A stretch of DNA of 64,000 nt from Chelativorans alearensis (GTDB lineage Bacteria; Pseudomonadota; Alphaproteobacteria; Rhizobiales; Rhizobiaceae). Location of the stretch: assembly GCF_010993735.1 (NCBI RefSeq), contig NZ_WQNI01000004.1, positions 1 to 64,000 on the forward strand, written 5' to 3'. Made by a program: the position numbers and the translations under genes. Below, one piece after another: positions 2,988 to 37,395 of the stretch. The notes beneath the pieces were generated by a model. It ran no database searches. It was given only the letters and a program-made list of their open reading frames with translations, and was not told where the DNA came from. How positions within the stretch are numbered: position 1 is the stretch's first letter; the number at the start of each line of letters is the position of its first letter.

Positions 2988-5345
2988 ATGAAGGCAGCTT
3001 CGAGATTGATGTCCGCCGTTTCGGCGGTAGCGCTGTCGGCCGGTTTTGCGACAGCTGGAGCGGTTGCCGTTCAGCTCGCGACCGTCGCCTCGACCGAGGC
3101 CGCGACAGCGAGCCGGATCGAAGTGCGGGGGAACCGCCGTGTCGATGCCGATACGATCCGCACCCAGGTCGGCATCAGCCCGGGACAGTCCTTCAGCAAT
3201 GCCGATCTCGATGAGGCCGTGAAGCGCCTTTTCGCCACCGGCCTTTTTGCTGACGTGTCGATCACGCAGTCCGGCGGCGCGCTTATCGTCACGGTGGACG
3301 AATATGCGATCGTCAACCAGGTGCTCTTCCAGGGCAACAAGAAGATCAAGGACCAGAACCTGGCGCAGTCCGTGCAGCTGCAGCCGCGCCGCGCCTTCTC
3401 GAACCAGCTCATGGAGGCCGATGCCGAGGCCATCCGCGAGGCCTATCGCCGCATCGGCCGCGACGACGCGACGGTGAGTGCGCGCGTGCAGGAATTGGAC
3501 GACGGCCGCGTCAACGTGATCTACGAGGTCCAGGAAGGCGACCGCACGAAGATCGCCGCCATCAATTTCGAGGGCAACAGCGCCTTCAGCGACCGGCGCC
3601 TGCGGGATGTGATCTCGACCAAGCGGTCGAACATCTTCTCGTTCCTGATGCGCAACGACATCTACGACGAGAACCGGCTGCGCGCCGACGAGGAGGTGCT
3701 GCGCCGCTTCTACTTCAACCGCGGCTATGCCGACTTCCGCGTCATCTCGTCCTCCGCCGACCTTGCCGATAACGATTACACGGTCACCTTCACCATCGAG
3801 GAAGGCGAGCGGTACACGTTCGGCGATGTCACCGTCGAATCGACCATTCCCGGCGTCGACGTCGAGGCCCTGCGCTCGGAAATCAAGACCCGCAGCGGCG
3901 CCGTCTACAGCGCCGAGGACGTCGAAGAAACGATCGTCGGCCTGACGGAGAACGTTGCCGGCCTCGGCTATGCCTTCGCGCAGGTCACGCCGCGCGGCAA
4001 CCGCGACTTCGCGAATCGCACGATCTCCGTCGTCTATGCCATCGACGAGGGACCGCGCGCCTATATCGAGCGCATCGAAATCCGCGGCAACAACCGCACG
4101 CGCGACTACGTCATCCGCCGCGAGTTCGACATCAGCGAGGGCGACGCCTTCAACCAGGTCCTCGTGCAGCGGGCAAAGCGCCGGCTCGACAGGCTGAACT
4201 TCTTCGAGACGGTGAACATCACCACCGTGCCCGGCTCCGAGCCGGACCAGGTGGTGCTGGTGGTCGACGTGGTCGAGAAGTCGACCGGCGAGTTCTCCAT
4301 CGGCGCCGGCTACACCACTGGCGCCTCCAACTCCTCCAGCGGCGGCTTCTCGGTCGAGGGCTCGATCACGGAGCGCAACTTCCTCGGGCGCGGTCAGTTC
4401 GTCCGCCTCGCGGCTGCCGGCGGCGAGGATTCGCGCGATTACTCCTTCTCCTTCACCGAGCCCTATTTCCTCGGCCGGCGGATCTCGGCGGGCTTCGACA
4501 TCTTCCGCAACACGCGTAAGTTCAGCAACTCGGATGACGACGATATCTACGAAAGAGAGACGACCGGCGGTACGGTACGCTTCGGCCTGCCGATCACCGA
4601 AGCGCTGACGGCACAGGTTGCCTACAACTACTCGCAGGAAGAATTCGACCAGGAGGCGGACAGCGCCGACCTGTCGACCGCGGTGCAACAGGCGCTCGAC
4701 CAGGGCACCTGGCGAAAGTCCTCGGTCAGCGGCTCGCTCATCTACAACACGATCGACGACATGCGGAACCCGCGTGAGGGTATCCACGCTACTTTGACGA
4801 CGGAGGTCGCGGGTCTGGGCGGCGACGCGAAATGGGCGAAGTTCACCGGACGCGCCAACATGTACCAGATGCTTTCGGACGAGCTTGATCTTGTTGGCTT
4901 GCTGACCGTGGGCGCCGGGCACATCGTCGGTTTCGATGAGGATCTGCGCATCTTCGACCAGTTCAACAGCAGCGATCGGATCATTCGCGGCTTCAAGTAT
5001 AACGGGATCGGCCCGTTTGAGACGACCCCCGACGGTGACCGGGACTATCTCGGCGGAACCACCTACTTCCATGCTACCGCCGAGGCACAGTTCCCGCTGC
5101 CGGTTATCCCCGAAAGCTTCGGTATTCGTGGTGCGGTGTTCGCGGATGCGGCGACGCTTTATGGCAGCGACTACGACAGCGCGGATGTCGGGGGAACCGA
5201 CATGGAGTGGCGCGCCTCGGTCGGCGCGAGCCTGATCTGGGCTTCGCCCTTCGGGCCGCTCAGGGTGGACTATGCCGAACCGGTCGTGAAGGAATCGACG
5301 GACCGGATCCAGCACTGGAATTTCGGTATCTCGACCCGGTTCTAG
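2988..5345 (+). CDS. bamA: Outer membrane protein assembly factor BamA
   Basis: Omp85 protein that folds and inserts beta-barrel proteins into the outer membrane. The 785-residue product has an N-terminal signal peptide (about residues 1-38, ending near STEAA), POTRA domains (about 40-380) with recurring FxGN and GYAxA/V motifs, and a C-terminal 16-strand barrel ending in aromatic F (WNFGISTRF), the outer-membrane insertion signal. An upstream in-frame start exists at 2928, but the ATG at 2988 begins directly with the signal peptide. It follows rseP after a 240-base gap that could hold its own promoter. Confidence 0.96.
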
Positions 5346-7764: not shown

Positions 7765-8641
7765 GCCGCCGCGCAGTCTGGCAATCGGCACGGGCGACCG
7801 CATAGCCATCATCGCCGGCAGCGGCCGGCTGCCGCAAGATATCGTCGAGGGCCTTTTCGATGCCGGCCATCGCCCACTCGTTGCGGCGATCGAGGGGGAG
7901 GCGGAATTTTCCGAAGCGCCGGAGCGCTACGACCTTCTGCGCGTGCCGGCACAGCGGCTGGGGCTTCTCATGCCCGAGCTCAAGCGGCACGGCGTGACCC
8001 ATCTCGTGCTGGCCGGCGGGGTGGCGGCACGCCCGCCGATCAGGAGCCTGCGTGTCCATCCGCGCTTCCTTCTGCACCTGCCGCGGCTCCTCACCGCCTA
8101 TGCGCGCGGCGACGACGCGCTGCTGCGCATGCTCGTCGGCTACGTCGAGGCGAACGGAATACGCGTCGTCGGCGCCCATGAGCTGGTGCCGGACCTGCTG
8201 GCGCCGGAGGGGCTTTTGAGCAAGGCGAAACCGGCGCGCGGCGACGAGAAGGACATCGCCGCCGCCCTTGCTGCCGCCCGCGCCATCGGCCGGCTGGACA
8301 TCGGCCAGGCGGCAATCGCCATTGGCGGGCGGGCCGTCGCGCTTGAAGGCATCGAGGGGACGGACGGCCTGCTCGCCCGCACCAAGGAGTTGCGCTCGCA
8401 CGGGCGGCTTGCCGGAAAGGGGCGCGGCGTTCTGGTGAAATGCGCCAAGCCCGGCCAGGAGGCGCGCGCCGACCTGCCGACGATCGGCCCGCAGACCGTG
8501 ACGGCGGCCCATGGCGCGGGGCTTGCCGGGATTGCCGTCGAGGCCGAGGTGAGCTTCATCCTCGATTGCGCCGAGACGGTGCGCCTGGCCGACCTTCACG
8601 GCCTTTTCCTCCTCGGCTTTACGCGGGGGCGGGAGCAATGA
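7745..8641 (+). CDS. lpxI: UDP-2,3-diacylglucosamine diphosphatase LpxI (DUF1009)
   Basis: Hydrolyses UDP-2,3-diacylglucosamine to lipid X, the role played by LpxH in gammaproteobacteria. The 298-residue product has an N-terminal domain beginning IAIIAGSGRLPQDIVEGL and the C-terminal DUF1009 part, with LVKCAKPGQEARADLPTIGP and GIAVEAE. Its place between lpxA and lpxB is typical of alphaproteobacteria. The start at 7745 lies inside the lpxA end; nearby in-frame ATGs at 7736 and 7745 are both possible. Confidence 0.93.
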   Translation: MTTAPNKPPRSLAIGTGDRIAIIAGSGRLPQDIVEGLFDAGHRPLVAAIEGEAEFSEAPERYDLLRVPAQRLGLLMPELKRHGVTHLVLAGGVAARPPIRSLRVHPRFLLHLPRLLTAYARGDDALLRMLVGYVEANGIRVVGAHELVPDLLAPEGLLSKAKPARGDEKDIAAALAAARAIGRLDIGQAAIAIGGRAVALEGIEGTDGLLARTKELRSHGRLAGKGRGVLVKCAKPGQEARADLPTIGPQTVTAAHGAGLAGIAVEAEVSFILDCAETVRLADLHGLFLLGFTRGREQ

Positions 8642-9813
8642 GCGGGAAGGGGCCGCTGAAGATCGCGGTGGTTGCCGGCGAAGAGTCGGGCGACCTTCTG
8701 GGCGCCGATCTCGCGGCGGCGATCGAGCGCCGGACGGGGCGGACGGTCGAACTTACCGGCGTCGGCGGGCGCAATCTCGAGGGGTTGGGGCTGAAGTCTC
8801 TCTTCAACGCCGACGATATCGCCCTCATGGGCATTTCGGCGGTCCTGCGCGATCTGCCGCGCCTCATGCGGCGCATCGGCCAGGCGGCGAGCGCGATTGC
8901 CGCTGCCAAGCCCGATTGCCTTGTCACCATCGACAGCCCCGATTTCGGCCTGCGCGTTGCGAAGAAGGTGAGGGCGGCCGACCCTTCGATCCCCGTCGTC
9001 CACTACGTGTGTCCGAGCGTGTGGGCGTGGCGGCCCGGCCGGGCAGCGGCCATGCGGCCGCATGTCGACCACGTCTTGTGTCTTCTGCCTTTCGAGCCGG
9101 ACGAGCTTGGGCGCCTCGGCGGGCCGCCCGGCACGTTCGTCGGCCACCGCCTGAGCAATGATGAGAATATCCAGGCGGCGGCGCGGGCGCAGATCGCGCG
9201 GGGCGGACAGGGAACGCGGAAAAAGCTCCTCCTTCTGCCGGGCTCCCGCAAAGGCGAGGTGCGGCGCCTTCTCGGCCCATTCGGCGAGACGGTGGCGGAA
9301 CTGGCGGCGGCGGGCCATACGTTCGACGTGGCTCTGCCAACGGTGCCGCATGTTGCGGCACTGGTGAAAACGGCGGTGGCGGGCTGGCCGGTGCGGCCAC
9401 AGGTCATCCTCGATCAGGCGGGCAAATGGACTGCCTTCGCCGAGGCCGATGCCGCGCTCGCCTGCTCGGGCACGGTGGCGCTGGAGCTTGCGCTCTCCCG
9501 AGTGCCCTTCATAAGTTGCTACAAGACGGACGCCGTCGCCTCGCGGCTGGCGCCGTTTCTGCTCACCGTCTGGTCGGCCTCGCTGCCCAACCTGATCGCC
9601 GGCTGGCCGGTCGTGCCGGAGCACTTCAACGCGTTCGTCCGTCCCGTTTATCTGGCGCGCCAGCTGGACCAGCTCTGGCGCGACACGCCGACCCGCCGCG
9701 CCCAGCGCGAAGGCTTTGTCGAAGTGGCCGAGGCGCTTGCCACGCCGCGCCCCTCGGGCGATATGGCGGCGGAGATCGTGCTCCGGCACATCGGGCACAA
9801 CAGCACGCGGTGA
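8638..9813 (+). CDS. lpxB: Lipid-A-disaccharide synthase LpxB
   Basis: GT19 glycosyltransferase that joins lipid X and UDP-2,3-diacylglucosamine to form the lipid A disaccharide. The 391 residues include the N-terminal AGEESGDLLGADL loop, the Y-V-C-P-S-V-W-A-W-R motif (about residues 122-131), LLLLPGSRKGEVRRLLGPF, and the sugar-nucleotide segment with CSGTVALELAL. The start overlaps the lpxI stop as ATGA. lpxK is not in this window. Confidence 0.96.
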   Translation: MSGKGPLKIAVVAGEESGDLLGADLAAAIERRTGRTVELTGVGGRNLEGLGLKSLFNADDIALMGISAVLRDLPRLMRRIGQAASAIAAAKPDCLVTIDSPDFGLRVAKKVRAADPSIPVVHYVCPSVWAWRPGRAAAMRPHVDHVLCLLPFEPDELGRLGGPPGTFVGHRLSNDENIQAAARAQIARGGQGTRKKLLLLPGSRKGEVRRLLGPFGETVAELAAAGHTFDVALPTVPHVAALVKTAVAGWPVRPQVILDQAGKWTAFAEADAALACSGTVALELALSRVPFISCYKTDAVASRLAPFLLTVWSASLPNLIAGWPVVPEHFNAFVRPVYLARQLDQLWRDTPTRRAQREGFVEVAEALATPRPSGDMAAEIVLRHIGHNSTR

Positions 9814-33219: not shown

Positions 33220-33404
33220 GTGCTTGGCTTTAGATGGGATGCCGGCGCCCCCGCACTCTGCCTATTTCGCAGGCAGAACCGTGCGATCGCGTGTAGAAAT
33301 CGCGGGCAGAATGGTCGCCGAACGGGCATTCGCATGTAACTTATAGAAATAGCTTGCGTTTCGGATGCAGGCTGGCTGAAATGCTTTTCAGGAAGGAGCA
33401 TTTC

Positions 33405-34814
33405 TTGGCCATGTTCGATGAGATGCGCCTGGGAGATCGGGCAAGACAACCATACGAGGCTTACGAGAACTGGTTCCACGGCCAGGACCCGGCACGGCTG
33501 AACGAGAAGTCGCAGGATGCCGAAAAGGTCTTCCGCCGCACCGGCATCACCTTCGCCGTCTATGGGGAGGCGGAGGCGGCCGAGCGGCTTATCCCGTTCG
33601 ATATCGTCCCGCGCATCCTCTCCGGCAAGGAATGGCGGCGCCTGGTCCAGGGGATCGAGCAGCGCGTGCAGGCGCTGAATGCCTTCCTCTACGATATCTA
33701 CCATCGGCAGGAGATCCTGCGGGCCGGCCGCATCCCGAAGGAGATCATCGCCTGCAACGAGGCTTTCCTGCCGGAGATGATCGGCGTGCGCCCGCCCGGC
33801 GGCGTCTACACGCACATCATCGGCGTCGACATCGTGCGCACCGCCGAGGACGAGTTCTACGTGCTGGAGGACAATGCCCGCACGCCGTCGGGCGTCTCCT
33901 ACATGCTGGAGAACCGTGAGACGATGATGCAGCTCTTCCCGGAGCTGTTCCAGAAGGTGAAGGTGCTGCCGGTGGAAAACTACCCGCAGCTCCTGCGCGA
34001 TTCGCTCGCCGCCGTCCGGCCGGCCAACTGCGATGGCTCGCCCACCATTGCCGTCTTGACGCCGGGCAGCTTCAACTCGGCCTATTTCGAGCACGCCTTC
34101 CTGGCCGACCAGATGGGCGTGGAGCTGGTCGAGGGGCCGGATTTGCGCGTGGTCGACGGCCGCGTGGCCATGCGCACCACCCAGGGCTACAAGAGCATCG
34201 ACGTGCTCTACCGCCGCGTCGACGACGACTTCCTCGACCCGCTGACCTTCAATCCCGATTCCGTGCTCGGCGTTCCCGGCATCATGGACGTCTACCGCGC
34301 CGGCAACATCGCCATCGCCAACGCGCCGGGCACGGGGATCGCCGATGACAAGGCGATCTACTCCTACATGCCCGAGATCGTGGAGTTCTACACCGGCCGC
34401 AAGGCGATCCTGCGCAACGTGCCGACCTGGCGCTGCTCAGAGCCGGCGAGCCTCTCTCACGTCCTCGACAATCTGCACGAACTGGTGGTGAAGGAGGTGC
34501 ACGGCTCCGGTGGCTACGGCATGCTGGTCGGCCCGGCGGCTTCCGCCAAGGAGCGGGAGGCTTTCGCGGCCAAGCTCAAGGCCAGGCCCGCCAACTACAT
34601 CGCCCAGCCGACGCTTTCCCTGTCGACCTGCCCGGTGCTCACCGAAAGCGGGCTGGCGCCGCGCCATGTGGACCTGCGCCCGTTCGTATTGGTGTCGGAC
34701 CGCATCCGCACGGTGCCGGGCGGGCTGACGCGGGTGGCGCTTAAAGAGGGTTCGCTGGTCGTAAACTCCTCACAGGGCGGGGGAACGAAAGACACATGGG
34801 TGCTGGATGATTGA
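33405..34814 (+). CDS. Circularly permuted type 2 ATP-grasp protein (Anbu operon)
   Basis: 469-residue member of the circularly permuted ATP-grasp family, predicted to form amide bonds using ATP. Recognisable segments are NWF near residue 20, RRTGITFAVYG, RLIPFDIVPRIL, GVDIVRTAEDEFYVLEDNARTPSG (key EDN), and the C-terminal QPTLSLSTCPVL and HVDLRPFVLVSD. TTG 33405 has AAGGAG (33393-33398) 6 bases upstream; ATG 33411 is an alternative. First gene of a four-gene operon with alpha-E, transglutaminase-like and Anbu proteins. Substrate unknown. Confidence 0.9.
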   Translation: MAMFDEMRLGDRARQPYEAYENWFHGQDPARLNEKSQDAEKVFRRTGITFAVYGEAEAAERLIPFDIVPRILSGKEWRRLVQGIEQRVQALNAFLYDIYHRQEILRAGRIPKEIIACNEAFLPEMIGVRPPGGVYTHIIGVDIVRTAEDEFYVLEDNARTPSGVSYMLENRETMMQLFPELFQKVKVLPVENYPQLLRDSLAAVRPANCDGSPTIAVLTPGSFNSAYFEHAFLADQMGVELVEGPDLRVVDGRVAMRTTQGYKSIDVLYRRVDDDFLDPLTFNPDSVLGVPGIMDVYRAGNIAIANAPGTGIADDKAIYSYMPEIVEFYTGRKAILRNVPTWRCSEPASLSHVLDNLHELVVKEVHGSGGYGMLVGPAASAKEREAFAAKLKARPANYIAQPTLSLSTCPVLTESGLAPRHVDLRPFVLVSDRIRTVPGGLTRVALKEGSLVVNSSQGGGTKDTWVLDD

Positions 34815-34832
34815 ACAGGCGCGGAGCTGACA

Positions 34833-35771
34833 ATGCTTCTGGGGCGCGCGGCCAATGGCCTTTACTGGATGCACCGGTATATCGAGCGGGCGGAGAATAT
34901 GGCCCGTCTCGTCGATACCGGCCATCGCCTTGCCTTGACGCAGACGGGCACGGCGTCGGACGAATGGATATCGGTGCTCACCAGCGCCGGCGCGCGCGAG
35001 GCTTTCGAACAGGAGGAGCGGCCCCACGATACGGCGAGCGTGACGGATTTCCTTCTGCGCGACCTCTCGAACCCGTCCAGCGTGATGGCCTCCATGGAGA
35101 CCGCCCGCATGAACGCGCGCATGGTGCGCACGGCGCTGACGCGCGAGACCTGGGAGAGCATCAACGAGGCCTGGATGGCGCTCCGCCGCATGCTCATGCG
35201 GCCCGTCGACGAGCGGGACCTGCCGGCCGTGCTCGACGCCATCAAGCGGGAGACCGCGCTCATCCGCGGTGCCTTCCACGGCACCATGCTGCGCAACGAG
35301 ATATTCGATTTCGCCCAACTCGGGACGCTGATCGAACGCGCCGACAACACCGCGCGCATCCTCGACGTCAAATATTACGTGCTCCTGCCTTCGGTCGCAT
35401 GGGTCGGCTCGCCGCTCGACAATCACCAGTGGCAGACCATCCTGCGTTCGGTCTCCGCCCAGCGCTCCTACCGCTGGATCTACGAAGGCTACGAGCCCAC
35501 CAGCATCGCCGATTATCTCATCCTCAACCGCCGCATGCCGCGCTCGCTTGCCTTCTGCTACCGCGGCATCTGCGACGCGCTGGAATTCCTGGCCGAGGAA
35601 TACGGCACCCGGCATCAAAGCCACGACATGGCCGCCGCGAAGCGGGAAAAGCTGCGCTCCGCTTCCGTTTCCGACATCTTCGAGGAGGGCCTGCACGAGT
35701 TCCTGAAGGATTTCATTCGTGACAATGGCGCGCTGGGCGATCAGATTGCCACGGACTATCGTTTCTACTGA
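34833..35771 (+). CDS. Alpha-E domain-containing protein (DUF403)
   Basis: 312-residue all-helical alpha-E protein, the standard partner of permuted ATP-grasp enzymes. It begins MLLGRAANGLYWMHRYIERAENMARLVD, the family's strongly conserved N-terminal motif (YWMxRYxERAEN), and repeats LIERADNTARILDVKYYVLL (key ERADNTAR) in the second half. It lies 18 bases after the ATP-grasp gene. The biochemical role is unknown; it is thought to act with the ligase. Confidence 0.92.
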   Translation: MLLGRAANGLYWMHRYIERAENMARLVDTGHRLALTQTGTASDEWISVLTSAGAREAFEQEERPHDTASVTDFLLRDLSNPSSVMASMETARMNARMVRTALTRETWESINEAWMALRRMLMRPVDERDLPAVLDAIKRETALIRGAFHGTMLRNEIFDFAQLGTLIERADNTARILDVKYYVLLPSVAWVGSPLDNHQWQTILRSVSAQRSYRWIYEGYEPTSIADYLILNRRMPRSLAFCYRGICDALEFLAEEYGTRHQSHDMAAAKREKLRSASVSDIFEEGLHEFLKDFIRDNGALGDQIATDYRFY

Positions 35772-35794
35772 CCAGGAACCCTTGGCCGACCCAC

Positions 35795-36589
35795 ATGCGC
35801 CTGAAAATCTCGCACCGCACCGAATATCAGTATGACGCGCCGCTGTCCTACGCCCTGCAGCGGCTACGGCTGTTCCCGAAAAGCGGCCCCACTCAGAATG
35901 TCGTGGAGTGGGCGCTTTCCATCGAGGGGGCGCGCGAGGAAGTGCGCTACGACGACAGCTTCGGCAACGACACGCGCCTTCTGAGCATCGAGGGGACGCC
36001 GCATACCATCGCCATTGCCGCCTCCGGCGTGGTCGAGACGAAGGATACGAACGGCGTTTCCGGCCGGCATTCGGGCCTTGCGCCGCTTTGGCTGTTCTGC
36101 CAGGAAACCCCGCTGACAGCGCCGGGCCCGGGCGTAGCGAGGCTCATCGAGGCGGTTGGCGGCGATGAGGGCATCGACCGTCTGCACGCCCTGATGGGGC
36201 TGGTGCGCGAGGGGGTGTCCTACGTGACGGGCACCACCAGTGCGGTGACGACGGCGGAAGAGGCGCTGACGCAAGGGCAGGGGGTGTGCCAGGACCATGC
36301 GCACATCTTCCTGTCGGCCGCGCGCCGCATGGGGTTTCCCGCCCGCTATGTGAGCGGCTATCTGCGCCTCGACGGCGCCGACGAGCAGACGGCGAGCCAC
36401 GCCTGGGCCGAGGCGCATGTGGAAGGGCTCGGCTGGGTCGGCTTCGACTGCTCCAACGGCATTTCGCCCGACGAGCGCTATGTGCGCGTGGCGACGGGCC
36501 GCGACTATCGCGATGCCATGCCGGTCATGGGGATTCGTCTGGGCCAGGCTGAAGAACAGCTTGCGGTCCAGATCAGTGTCGAGCAGTAA
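35795..36589 (+). CDS. Transglutaminase-like cysteine protease family protein
   Basis: 264 residues: N-terminal beta domain of bacterial transglutaminase-like proteins (MRLKISHRTEYQYDAPL, LFPKSG) and the papain-like core with the catalytic triad C165 (QGVCQDHAH), H202 (ASHAWAEA) and D218 (GFDCSNG). Probably a cytoplasmic peptidase or amide-forming enzyme; no signal peptide. Third gene of the Anbu operon, 23 bases after the alpha-E gene. Its natural substrate may be the product of the ATP-grasp enzyme. Confidence 0.92.
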   Translation: MRLKISHRTEYQYDAPLSYALQRLRLFPKSGPTQNVVEWALSIEGAREEVRYDDSFGNDTRLLSIEGTPHTIAIAASGVVETKDTNGVSGRHSGLAPLWLFCQETPLTAPGPGVARLIEAVGGDEGIDRLHALMGLVREGVSYVTGTTSAVTTAEEALTQGQGVCQDHAHIFLSAARRMGFPARYVSGYLRLDGADEQTASHAWAEAHVEGLGWVGFDCSNGISPDERYVRVATGRDYRDAMPVMGIRLGQAEEQLAVQISVEQ

Positions 36590-36625
36590 TCTGACACGGA
36601 GAATCGCAACGGGACGTTCGGGCGC

Positions 36626-37354
36626 ATGACCTACTGTGTCGGGCTCAAGATCGATAGCGGACTGGTGTTCATGTCCGACACGCGAACCAATGCCGGCGTC
36701 GATAACGTGTCGACCTTCAGCAAGATGCATTGCTGGTCGAAACCGGACGAACGCGTGCTCGTGCTCCTGTCGGCGGGCAACCTTGCCACCACCCAGGCCG
36801 TCATCAGCCTTCTCGACGAGCGCACCAAGGCGCCGAAGGAGCGGGCGCCCTCGCTATTGAAGACGTCGTCCATGTACCAGACGGCCAAGCTCGTCGGCGA
36901 CGCGCTGAAGGAGGTTATCCGCGAGGCCGCGCCCGCCGGCCAGAACGCCGATGCCTTCGGTGCCTCTTTCATCCTCGGCGGGCAGATCCGCGGCACCGAA
37001 CCGCGGCTCTTCCTCGTCTATCCGGAAGGCAATTTCATCGAGGCCGGCCCCGACACGCATTTCTTCCAGATCGGCGAGACCAAATACGGCAAGCCGATCC
37101 TGGTGCGCGCGCACGACCCGAAGATGAGCTTCGAGGAGACGGTGAAGCTCTTGCTCGTCTCCTTCGATTCGACGCTGAGGTCCAACCTCTCGGTCGGTCT
37201 GCCGCTCGACCTGCTCTACTACCCGCGCGATAGCTTTCGCGTCGGCTTCGAGAAGCGGATCGGACAGGACGACCGCTATTTCCGGACGGTCGCCGAGGGC
37301 TGGTCGAGCGCGCTGAAGGCCGCGTTCAAGAGCCTGCCCGATTTCAAGCCCTGA
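36626..37354 (+). CDS. Anbu, proteasome-type peptidase (ancestral beta subunit)
   Basis: 242-residue Ntn-hydrolase of the proteasome superfamily. It starts MTYCVGLKIDSGLVFMSDTRTNAG: removal of Met would expose Thr2 as the catalytic N-terminal nucleophile, and D18/R20 match the conserved SDTRTNAGVD motif; a lysine (K34) and SAGNLATTQ follow as in Anbu. No HslU-type unfoldase gene is near, in line with Anbu assembling without one. Last gene of the ATP-grasp/alpha-E/transglutaminase operon. Substrate unknown. Confidence 0.93.
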   Translation: MTYCVGLKIDSGLVFMSDTRTNAGVDNVSTFSKMHCWSKPDERVLVLLSAGNLATTQAVISLLDERTKAPKERAPSLLKTSSMYQTAKLVGDALKEVIREAAPAGQNADAFGASFILGGQIRGTEPRLFLVYPEGNFIEAGPDTHFFQIGETKYGKPILVRAHDPKMSFEETVKLLLVSFDSTLRSNLSVGLPLDLLYYPRDSFRVGFEKRIGQDDRYFRTVAEGWSSALKAAFKSLPDFKP

Positions 37355-37395
37355 TTTCTCGCGCGGGCGCGTGCGCGCGGTTGCACCTTTCTTAT

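Follow-up and report, generated by a model that had tools for sequence, protein, structure and literature searches.

The Anbu operon of Chelativorans alearensis: a fixed ATP-grasp/alpha-E centre, an optional proteasome-like peptidase and a possible role in making and breaking amides

Introduction

Which compound is joined, and which bond is then cut, by an operon that sets a ligase-type protein beside two hydrolase-type proteins? The question is raised by four adjacent genes (positions 33405 to 37354, + strand) of a 64,000-nucleotide stretch of Chelativorans alearensis DNA (contig NZ_WQNI01000004.1 of assembly GCF_010993735.1, positions 1 to 64,000), called the window hereafter. In order, they encode a circularly permuted (CP) ATP-grasp protein, an alpha-E protein, a transglutaminase-like protein and Anbu, a homologue of the proteasome peptidases. 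Anbu operons were reportedly treated some time ago by Valas and Bourne in 2008 and by Iyer in 2009. The same four genes have since been described as the Anbu operon (PMC5666114; PMC6376114, for Yersinia bercovieri; these and all other papers cited are drawn on in part). The window set is this published operon, as a first-pass annotation made from the letters of the window had recognised, and is thus already known and not new: families, order and strand are the same, and we noticed no difference that would make it other than an ordinary member.

In relatives, Anbu forms an open-ring dodecamer and has been placed near the root of proteasome evolution (PMC5666114). A function was still lacking for it as of 2021, according to the part of PMC8665760 drawn on here. 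We asked which of the four genes depend on which, what their conserved residues suggest, and with which other genes the operon travels.

Results

Identity of the four proteins and their predicted catalytic residues

All four proteins score above their Pfam cut-offs, so the names first given to them hold, as does the first account of their layout: the genes follow one another on the + strand, separated by gaps of 18, 23 and 36 nt (open reading frame (ORF) scan and Pfam; Table 1). The ATP-grasp protein matches PF14403 at 552 bits (curated cut-off 32) over the whole profile (1 to 374 of 374), and PDB entry 3n6x with an expectation value (E) of 4e-196. In a profile search of solved structures, 3n6x, labelled by its depositors as a putative glutathionylspermidine synthase, was the only match at a meaningful E-value. 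The transglutaminase-like protein reaches 78 bits with PF01841 and 72 bits with PF08379, both above cut-off, and the Cys165, His202 and Asp218 triad announced in the first-pass annotation is indeed intact.

Anbu scores 32.2 bits against PF00227 (cut-off 22.4). It also matches five Anbu-type sequences of the PDB (5loy, 5nyj, 5nyf, 5nyw and 5lox; E between 4e-95 and 2e-64) over its full length, the alignments starting at residue 1 or 2 and ending at residues 238-241 of 242; the best of the five is 5loy, labelled as a designed Anbu protein (E 3.8e-95; compare 6.5e-80 for 5nyj). The protein starts with Met-Thr, and Thr2, Asp18 and Lys33 (Thr1, Asp17 and Lys32 of the mature form) are present in 68/68 aligned proteins, the window's included, which bears out the position first proposed for the nucleophile.

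Alpha-E scores 300 bits against PF04168 (cut-off 20.8). Its two halves align over 91 columns with a probability of 98 and an E-value of 2e-13 (hhalign), compared with probabilities of at most 1 in 20 column-shuffled controls. Judged by this alignment, alpha-E is a tandem internal duplication. Each half carries one ER motif (residues 18-19 and 168-169), and each motif is found in all 81 aligned proteins. The AlphaFold2 model is all-helical, with a mean predicted local distance difference test score (pLDDT) of 90.5, and of 89.5 when the C-terminal half is modelled alone. Sequence searches for a relative of known structure found none, and structure searches, a check that the first-pass annotation had put forward, gave no match exceeding the generic helical-bundle level and no clear structural relative. 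Since many charged residues are invariant, the alignment suggests that alpha-E has an active-site role rather than that of a mere scaffold.

Dependence among the four genes

Two samples were searched, one drawn from the window's order (order sample, 121 genomes) and one from its phylum (phylum sample, 299 genomes), with 13 carriers common to both. In the order sample, alpha-E, CP-ATP-grasp and Bact_transglu_N, together called the trio below, occur in an identical set of 87 genomes. Anbu is present in 76 of these 87 genomes and in none of the 34 that have no trio, so it is an optional add-on to the other three genes. The remaining 11 trio genomes lack Anbu, and in at least one of them (G024) the locus ends at a contig edge, so that this absence may be an artefact. 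The phylum sample gives the same picture, with alpha-E in 100 of the 101 Anbu genomes and Anbu absent from 56 of the 156 alpha-E genomes. Anbu had been counted as a core member of the set; these figures correct that view. ATP-grasp and alpha-E are the fixed centre of the operon, the transglutaminase is nearly fixed and Anbu is optional.

The arrangement of the genes was then considered. Among 80 named loci of relatives, 64 have the four genes complete in the same order and on the same strand, matching the published operon, which shows that the arrangement is not due to chance; the window operon is closest to those of Mesorhizobium and Aquamicrobium. Of the other named loci, 13 are without Anbu (a figure that includes L133, cut by a contig end), two, from Aureimonas, are without the transglutaminase, and one begins at a contig end. 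Ten of the Anbu-less loci were traced to their genomes: nine have no Anbu elsewhere and one, a Caballeronia, has one. When the presence of Anbu is mapped on a tree of alpha-E with 77 rows (L088, L112, L116 and L118 excluded), the label requires four changes, L133 being one of them, compared with a mean of 12.2 after shuffling. It follows from this tree that Anbu was probably lost from the operon on a small number of occasions, one clade of Rhizobiaceae standing out.

ATP-grasp and alpha-E also exist as a single protein. The order sample holds 86 loci with separate genes and 50 with a fusion, and 49 genomes carry both kinds (the fused loci of G103 and G074, as assembled, do not read as a single intact frame; in G078 a second alpha-E fragment, C209, was dropped before counting and the genome was set as separate type by hand). 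Their fusion in these 50 further loci argues that the two proteins work jointly. Anbu keeps to the separate form: 63 of 77 Anbu genes lie directly downstream of a separate trio on the same strand, nine are differently arranged but no more than 12 kb away, and five lie in other places or on other contigs. None of the 77 was found within 10 kb of any of the 50 fused loci on the same contig. The fusion belongs to a sister cluster, described here from two examples, in which it occurs with a transglutaminase and a transglutaminase-DUF2126 protein. The ATP-grasp, alpha-E and transglutaminase families are those of the Anbu operon, whereas the first two are joined in a single protein, there is an additional DUF2126 amidoligase, and Anbu stays outside the 10 kb just mentioned.

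Some loci depart from these two layouts. Two combined clusters without Anbu (L067 3107-13366 and L068 5335-15591) contain separate ATP-grasp and alpha-E genes, a protein of about 1125 residues with a transglutaminase match, an ATP-grasp/alpha-E fusion and a transglutaminase. Two genomes of 1.3 Mb retain the trio without Anbu (L069 5992-9150 and L070 5001-8159), which suggests that the trio is worth retaining in reduced genomes. Finally, G116 has a second Anbu gene (L073 8513-9238); in the 17 kb surrounding this gene, no member of the trio was found.

Exceptions at the transglutaminase step

The predicted nucleophile of the transglutaminase-like protein is replaced by Ser in 4/4 Burkholderia loci (L096, L182, L183 and L184), His and Asp being retained. 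In L096 and L182, the two whose alignments were read, there is an insertion ahead of the His, and a second transglutaminase that has the Cys lies just downstream; that of L096 is fused to DUF2126. The Cys is retained in the Caballeronia locus L095. The first-pass annotation had held that a dispensable Cys would tell against its reading. The Burkholderia loci come near to this, although in L096 and L182 the Cys-bearing second protein accompanies the variant.

In the two Aureimonas operons (L107 7995-9783 and L108 7995-9816), Anbu directly follows alpha-E with no transglutaminase between them. Two other transglutaminase loci of these genomes, examined out of five transglutaminase-N matches in the two, reach 124 and 128 bits, compared with more than 250 for operon copies.

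Association with urea genes and nitrogen limitation

Three loci of relatives adjoin urea genes. In L177, ureD starts 2 nt after Anbu and is followed by ureA, ureB and ureC, with ureE and ureF farther along. In L179, urtABCDE (all five above curated cut-offs) lie 318 bp upstream of the operon on the same strand, with a divergent urease gene beyond. In L113 (Pseudooceanicola), urtABCDE homologues start about 0.5 kb downstream of the operon. As L179 and L113 may belong to one order, the linkage is counted as three loci and not as three lineages. Around the trio of Sinorhizobium meliloti pSymB, no urea or ammonium gene was present among the 10 ORFs scanned, and the urease of the window's own genome is on another contig.

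At the level of whole genomes, urease is found in 68/87 trio genomes compared with 9/34 of the others in the order sample, and in 81/156 alpha-E genomes compared with 20/143 of the others in the phylum sample (counting the 101 genomes with strong matches and not the 16 whose matches were all weak). Neither comparison is adjusted for kinship, for genome size or for how complete the assemblies are, and both serve as support only.

Published data on relatives match a nitrogen link in part. Under nitrogen limitation, PP_2686-2688 of wild-type Pseudomonas putida rise 11- to 15-fold together with urtABCD (PMC7801951), and a second study gave 11.1-fold for PP2685 and about 7-fold for PP2686-2687 (PMC3325844); from operon order we infer that PP_2687 is alpha-E and PP_2688 ATP-grasp. 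In a Burkholderia cenocepacia ntrC mutant, expression of ATP-grasp, alpha-E and transglutaminase changes by log2 values of -8.2, -9.4 and -9.4, respectively (PMC5491218). In marine metagenomes, domains of the operon are associated with urea domains (PMC3597751).

Upstream sequences, surroundings and distribution

Upstream sequences were scanned for sigma-54 sites with a consensus. Within 300 bp upstream, a score of at least 17 was reached in 12/77 relatives (15.6%, compared with 5.6% of random windows). Within the last 120 bp, a score of at least 17.5 was reached in 8/77, compared with 1.2 expected from shuffles and 0/77 on the reverse strand. Three of these eight matches represent a single Rhizobiaceae site, the GG of which close relatives do not keep, and the candidate sites of Hyphomicrobium, Bauldia, Methylorubrum and Burkholderia alone stay plausible. 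When the upstream stretches of nine close relatives were aligned, GCGCTTGATTTTCTCC was common to L082, L085, L086 and L087 and not kept in the window; this alignment says little, because the stretch taken from L089, at least, is coding sequence. In the Rhizobiaceae-clade trios without Anbu, a conserved element, roughly TTCTTGCATTG and then TTGTACTCAAATG, lies upstream of ATP-grasp (L097, L101, L103, L104, L106, L109, L119, L146 and L098).

The TTG start of ATP-grasp is supported by AGGAAGGAG six bases upstream and by the N-termini of relatives, which read MAAFDEML or MKPFDEM. A pattern scan found four terminator-like sites across the region (2.2 expected) and none in the three intergenic gaps. 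The sole + strand site in the span from the first start codon to the final stop codon is inside Anbu (36946-36962), and two - strand sites lie within the ATP-grasp gene. The operon is flanked by tgt upstream and by genes for a DeoR-type regulator and a FAD-dependent glycerol-3-phosphate dehydrogenase-like protein downstream (Pfam), which do not point to its function.

Among viral contigs, 46 pattern matches included no relative. In a plasmid collection of 72,556 records, Anbu was found in 25 records and alpha-E in 103, 63 of the latter from Sinorhizobium; the records listed are an unsorted set in which some are of megaplasmid or chromosome size.

Table 1. Positions of the operon features in the window (33405 to 37354 and immediate surroundings) and of the Burkholderia variants
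Feature	Position	Strand	Basis
Shine-Dalgarno-like AGGAAGGAG, 6 nt 5' of the ATP-grasp TTG start	33390..33398	+	Direct sequence reading
CP type 2 ATP-grasp of 469 aa; start codon TTG, with an alternative ATG at 33411	33405..34814	+	PF14403; PDB 3n6x
Alpha-E, 312 aa, two homologous helical halves	34833..35771	+	PF04168; internal repeat; AlphaFold2 model
Alpha-E first ER motif, Glu18-Arg19	34884..34889	+	Both residues in 81/81 aligned proteins, window included
Alpha-E second ER motif, Glu168-Arg169, counterpart in the duplicated half	35334..35339	+	81/81; hhalign alignment to the first motif
Transglutaminase-like cysteine protein, 264 aa	35795..36589	+	PF01841 and PF08379 above cut-off
Cys165 codon, predicted nucleophile	36287..36289	+	Cys in 78/79 aligned proteins; Ser in L096
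His202 codon	36398..36400	+	79/79 aligned proteins
Asp218 codon	36446..36448	+	78/79; gap in the remaining row, L133
Anbu, proteasome-like N-terminal nucleophile (Ntn) peptidase homologue, 242 aa	36626..37354	+	Anbu-type PDB chains, 5loy and four others
Anbu Thr2 codon, predicted N-terminal nucleophile once Met is removed	36629..36631	+	Thr in 68/68, window included
Weak terminator-like stem-loop 3' of Anbu	37371..37386	+	Pattern match only
Ser-for-Cys transglutaminases of Burkholderia	L096 ~9450-9810; L182 ~8420-8835; L183 ~4425-4800; L184 ~4420-4815

Discussion

The reading we prefer, tentatively and at a little under an even chance, is that the operon is an amide make-and-break module, an ATP-dependent ligase with one or two amide hydrolases, serving nitrogen scavenging or recycling. 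It draws on gene content, conserved catalytic residues, the dependence of Anbu on the trio, the duplicated alpha-E fold and the urea-gene linkage of three relative loci, together with data of others on phosphate release by one relative and on the control of relatives by nitrogen limitation or NtrC (PMC6376114, PMC7801951, PMC5491218). From these we infer ligation, hydrolysis of the product, the kind of substrate and a nitrogen role in the window's organism. The ATP-grasp protein would activate a carboxylate as an acyl phosphate and couple it to an amine, with alpha-E as its obligate partner, perhaps contributing part of the acceptor site through the two repeated ER motifs. The transglutaminase-like Cys protein would then hydrolyse or exchange the amide made by ATP-grasp/alpha-E. 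Anbu, an Ntn hydrolase that is an optional addition in many lineages, would cut the same family of products further and not act in general protein turnover. The physiological setting would be nitrogen scavenging or recycling, beside urea uptake and urease.

A synthetase and an amidase acting on one bond have a precedent in glutathionylspermidine synthetase/amidase (GspSA), where an ATP-grasp ligase is paired with a Cys amidase. The window operon would work alike, although the profile search of solved structures detected no sequence relation (3n6x being the sole meaningful match) and GspSA is not known to have a counterpart of alpha-E or Anbu. The first-pass annotation had proposed the making and then the cutting or transfer of an amide-linked peptide tag or store. 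The first half of this fits the conserved ligase- and hydrolase-type parts, and is the published peptide-synthesis hypothesis credited to Iyer et al. 2009 (PMC5666114, PMC6376114). We found no support for a tag or a store in particular, and that part is speculation. An assigned substrate was found nowhere in the parts examined of the literature on Anbu, alpha-E/DUF403, DUF2126 and nitrogen.

Several results weigh against an amide module with a nitrogen role, starting with the enzymes themselves. YbATP-grasp of Y. bercovieri liberates phosphate from ATP, but within the portion of PMC6376114 drawn on, Glu, Gln and Anbu gave no stimulation of this release, the operon proteins were not found to interact specifically with one another, and no peptidase activity of Anbu was seen. 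No report of ligation by the operon's ATP-grasp was found in the parts of the literature examined, and Fuchs et al. 2017 prefer protein degradation to peptide synthesis (PMC5666114). The hydrolase step is not universal, since the Burkholderia proteins lack the Cys in 4/4 loci and two Aureimonas operons have no transglutaminase gene. One Anbu genome of the phylum sample, G217, is without alpha-E, none being found even at E 10 (Anbu at L167 6038-6784).

The nitrogen side has its own difficulties. Linkage to urea genes is rare, with urt genes at 1/80 named loci and ureC at 0/80. Among trio genomes, urease is found in 62/76 with Anbu and 6/11 without it, and in 41/50 with the fused system and 27/37 without it. 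By these counts, the urease association is not special to the Anbu-bearing version. In nitrogen-limited wild-type P. putida, the Anbu gene PP_2685 rises only 1.12-fold, and the trio rises 14- to 20-fold in the rpoN mutant too, so that induction in these data does not need sigma-54 (PMC7801951). As for the window, its best sigma-54 match begins 196 bp before the start codon and overlaps the 3' end of tgt, and is not convincing.

Protein tagging for degradation is the chief rival, though in our judgement an unlikely one. ATP-grasp/alpha-E and the transglutaminase would mark proteins, and Anbu would degrade the marked or unfolded ones and recycle their amino acids in nitrogen starvation. The model is the Pup-proteasome system, where an amidoligase and a proteasome-like peptidase have a role in nitrogen starvation, and it is in these features that the window operon would resemble it. 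The proposal agrees with the strict occurrence of Anbu beside the trio (76/87 compared with 0/34), with the induction of relatives by nitrogen limitation (PMC7801951, PMC3325844) and with the binding of the proteasome inhibitors epoxomicin and MG132 to Anbu, demonstrated at the Thr1 site for epoxomicin, by authors who favour degradation (PMC5666114). It has to contend with the absence of peptidase activity mentioned above and with the optional place of Anbu: because the trio persists without it, in 11/87 order genomes (as alpha-E does in 56/156 phylum genomes), the core task is unlikely to lie in degradation by Anbu. Unlike the Pup-proteasome genes, those scanned here contain no AAA+ unfoldase, a statement that covers the four genes and three Pfam-scanned neighbours, the remaining genome not having been searched.

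A further proposal, made by analogy and less likely still, is that the ligase puts an amino acid such as glutamate on a scavenged amine, that other enzymes process the adduct, and that the transglutaminase-like protein, Anbu or both then free the carrier. Gamma-glutamylation works in this way in putrescine breakdown. Such a route would account for the operon adjoining urea genes in three relative loci, and for the co-induction, when nitrogen is scarce, of an ATP-consuming ligase and of genes that take up urea, nitrate and polyamines (PMC5491218, PMC7801951). Against it, no oxidase, transaminase or amine transporter was shown to be linked to the operon in this analysis, urea itself requires no such route, and the pSymB trio of S. 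meliloti has no urea or ammonium gene among its 10 neighbouring ORFs. We give a small chance, smaller again, to a nitrogen-scavenging pathway of a new type, in which ATP-grasp/alpha-E would add an amino acid to a scavenged compound, perhaps urea-related or a polyamine, and the Cys hydrolase and a repurposed Ntn hydrolase would release the product; if this were true, Anbu would be a small-molecule or short-peptide amidase and not a protease. Least probable is a small peptide polymer made as a nitrogen store or secondary product and mobilised later by the transglutaminase-like protein and Anbu, since, although a ligase with two amide hydrolases suits such a cycle and the sister cluster has a second putative amidoligase (DUF2126), the ligase genes themselves are induced by nitrogen limitation or NtrC, the wrong moment for building a store (PMC5491218, PMC7801951), and the parts of the literature examined contained no report of such a polymer.

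For the amide make-and-break module that we favour, these findings shift the question put to this family, from which protein Anbu cuts to which nitrogen compound the ATP-grasp/alpha-E pair joins. With Anbu optional and the core found in relatives alongside urea uptake, urease and nitrogen-limitation genes, the search for a substrate is narrowed from any protein to nitrogen compounds, and nitrogen limitation offers a growth condition under which to seek it.

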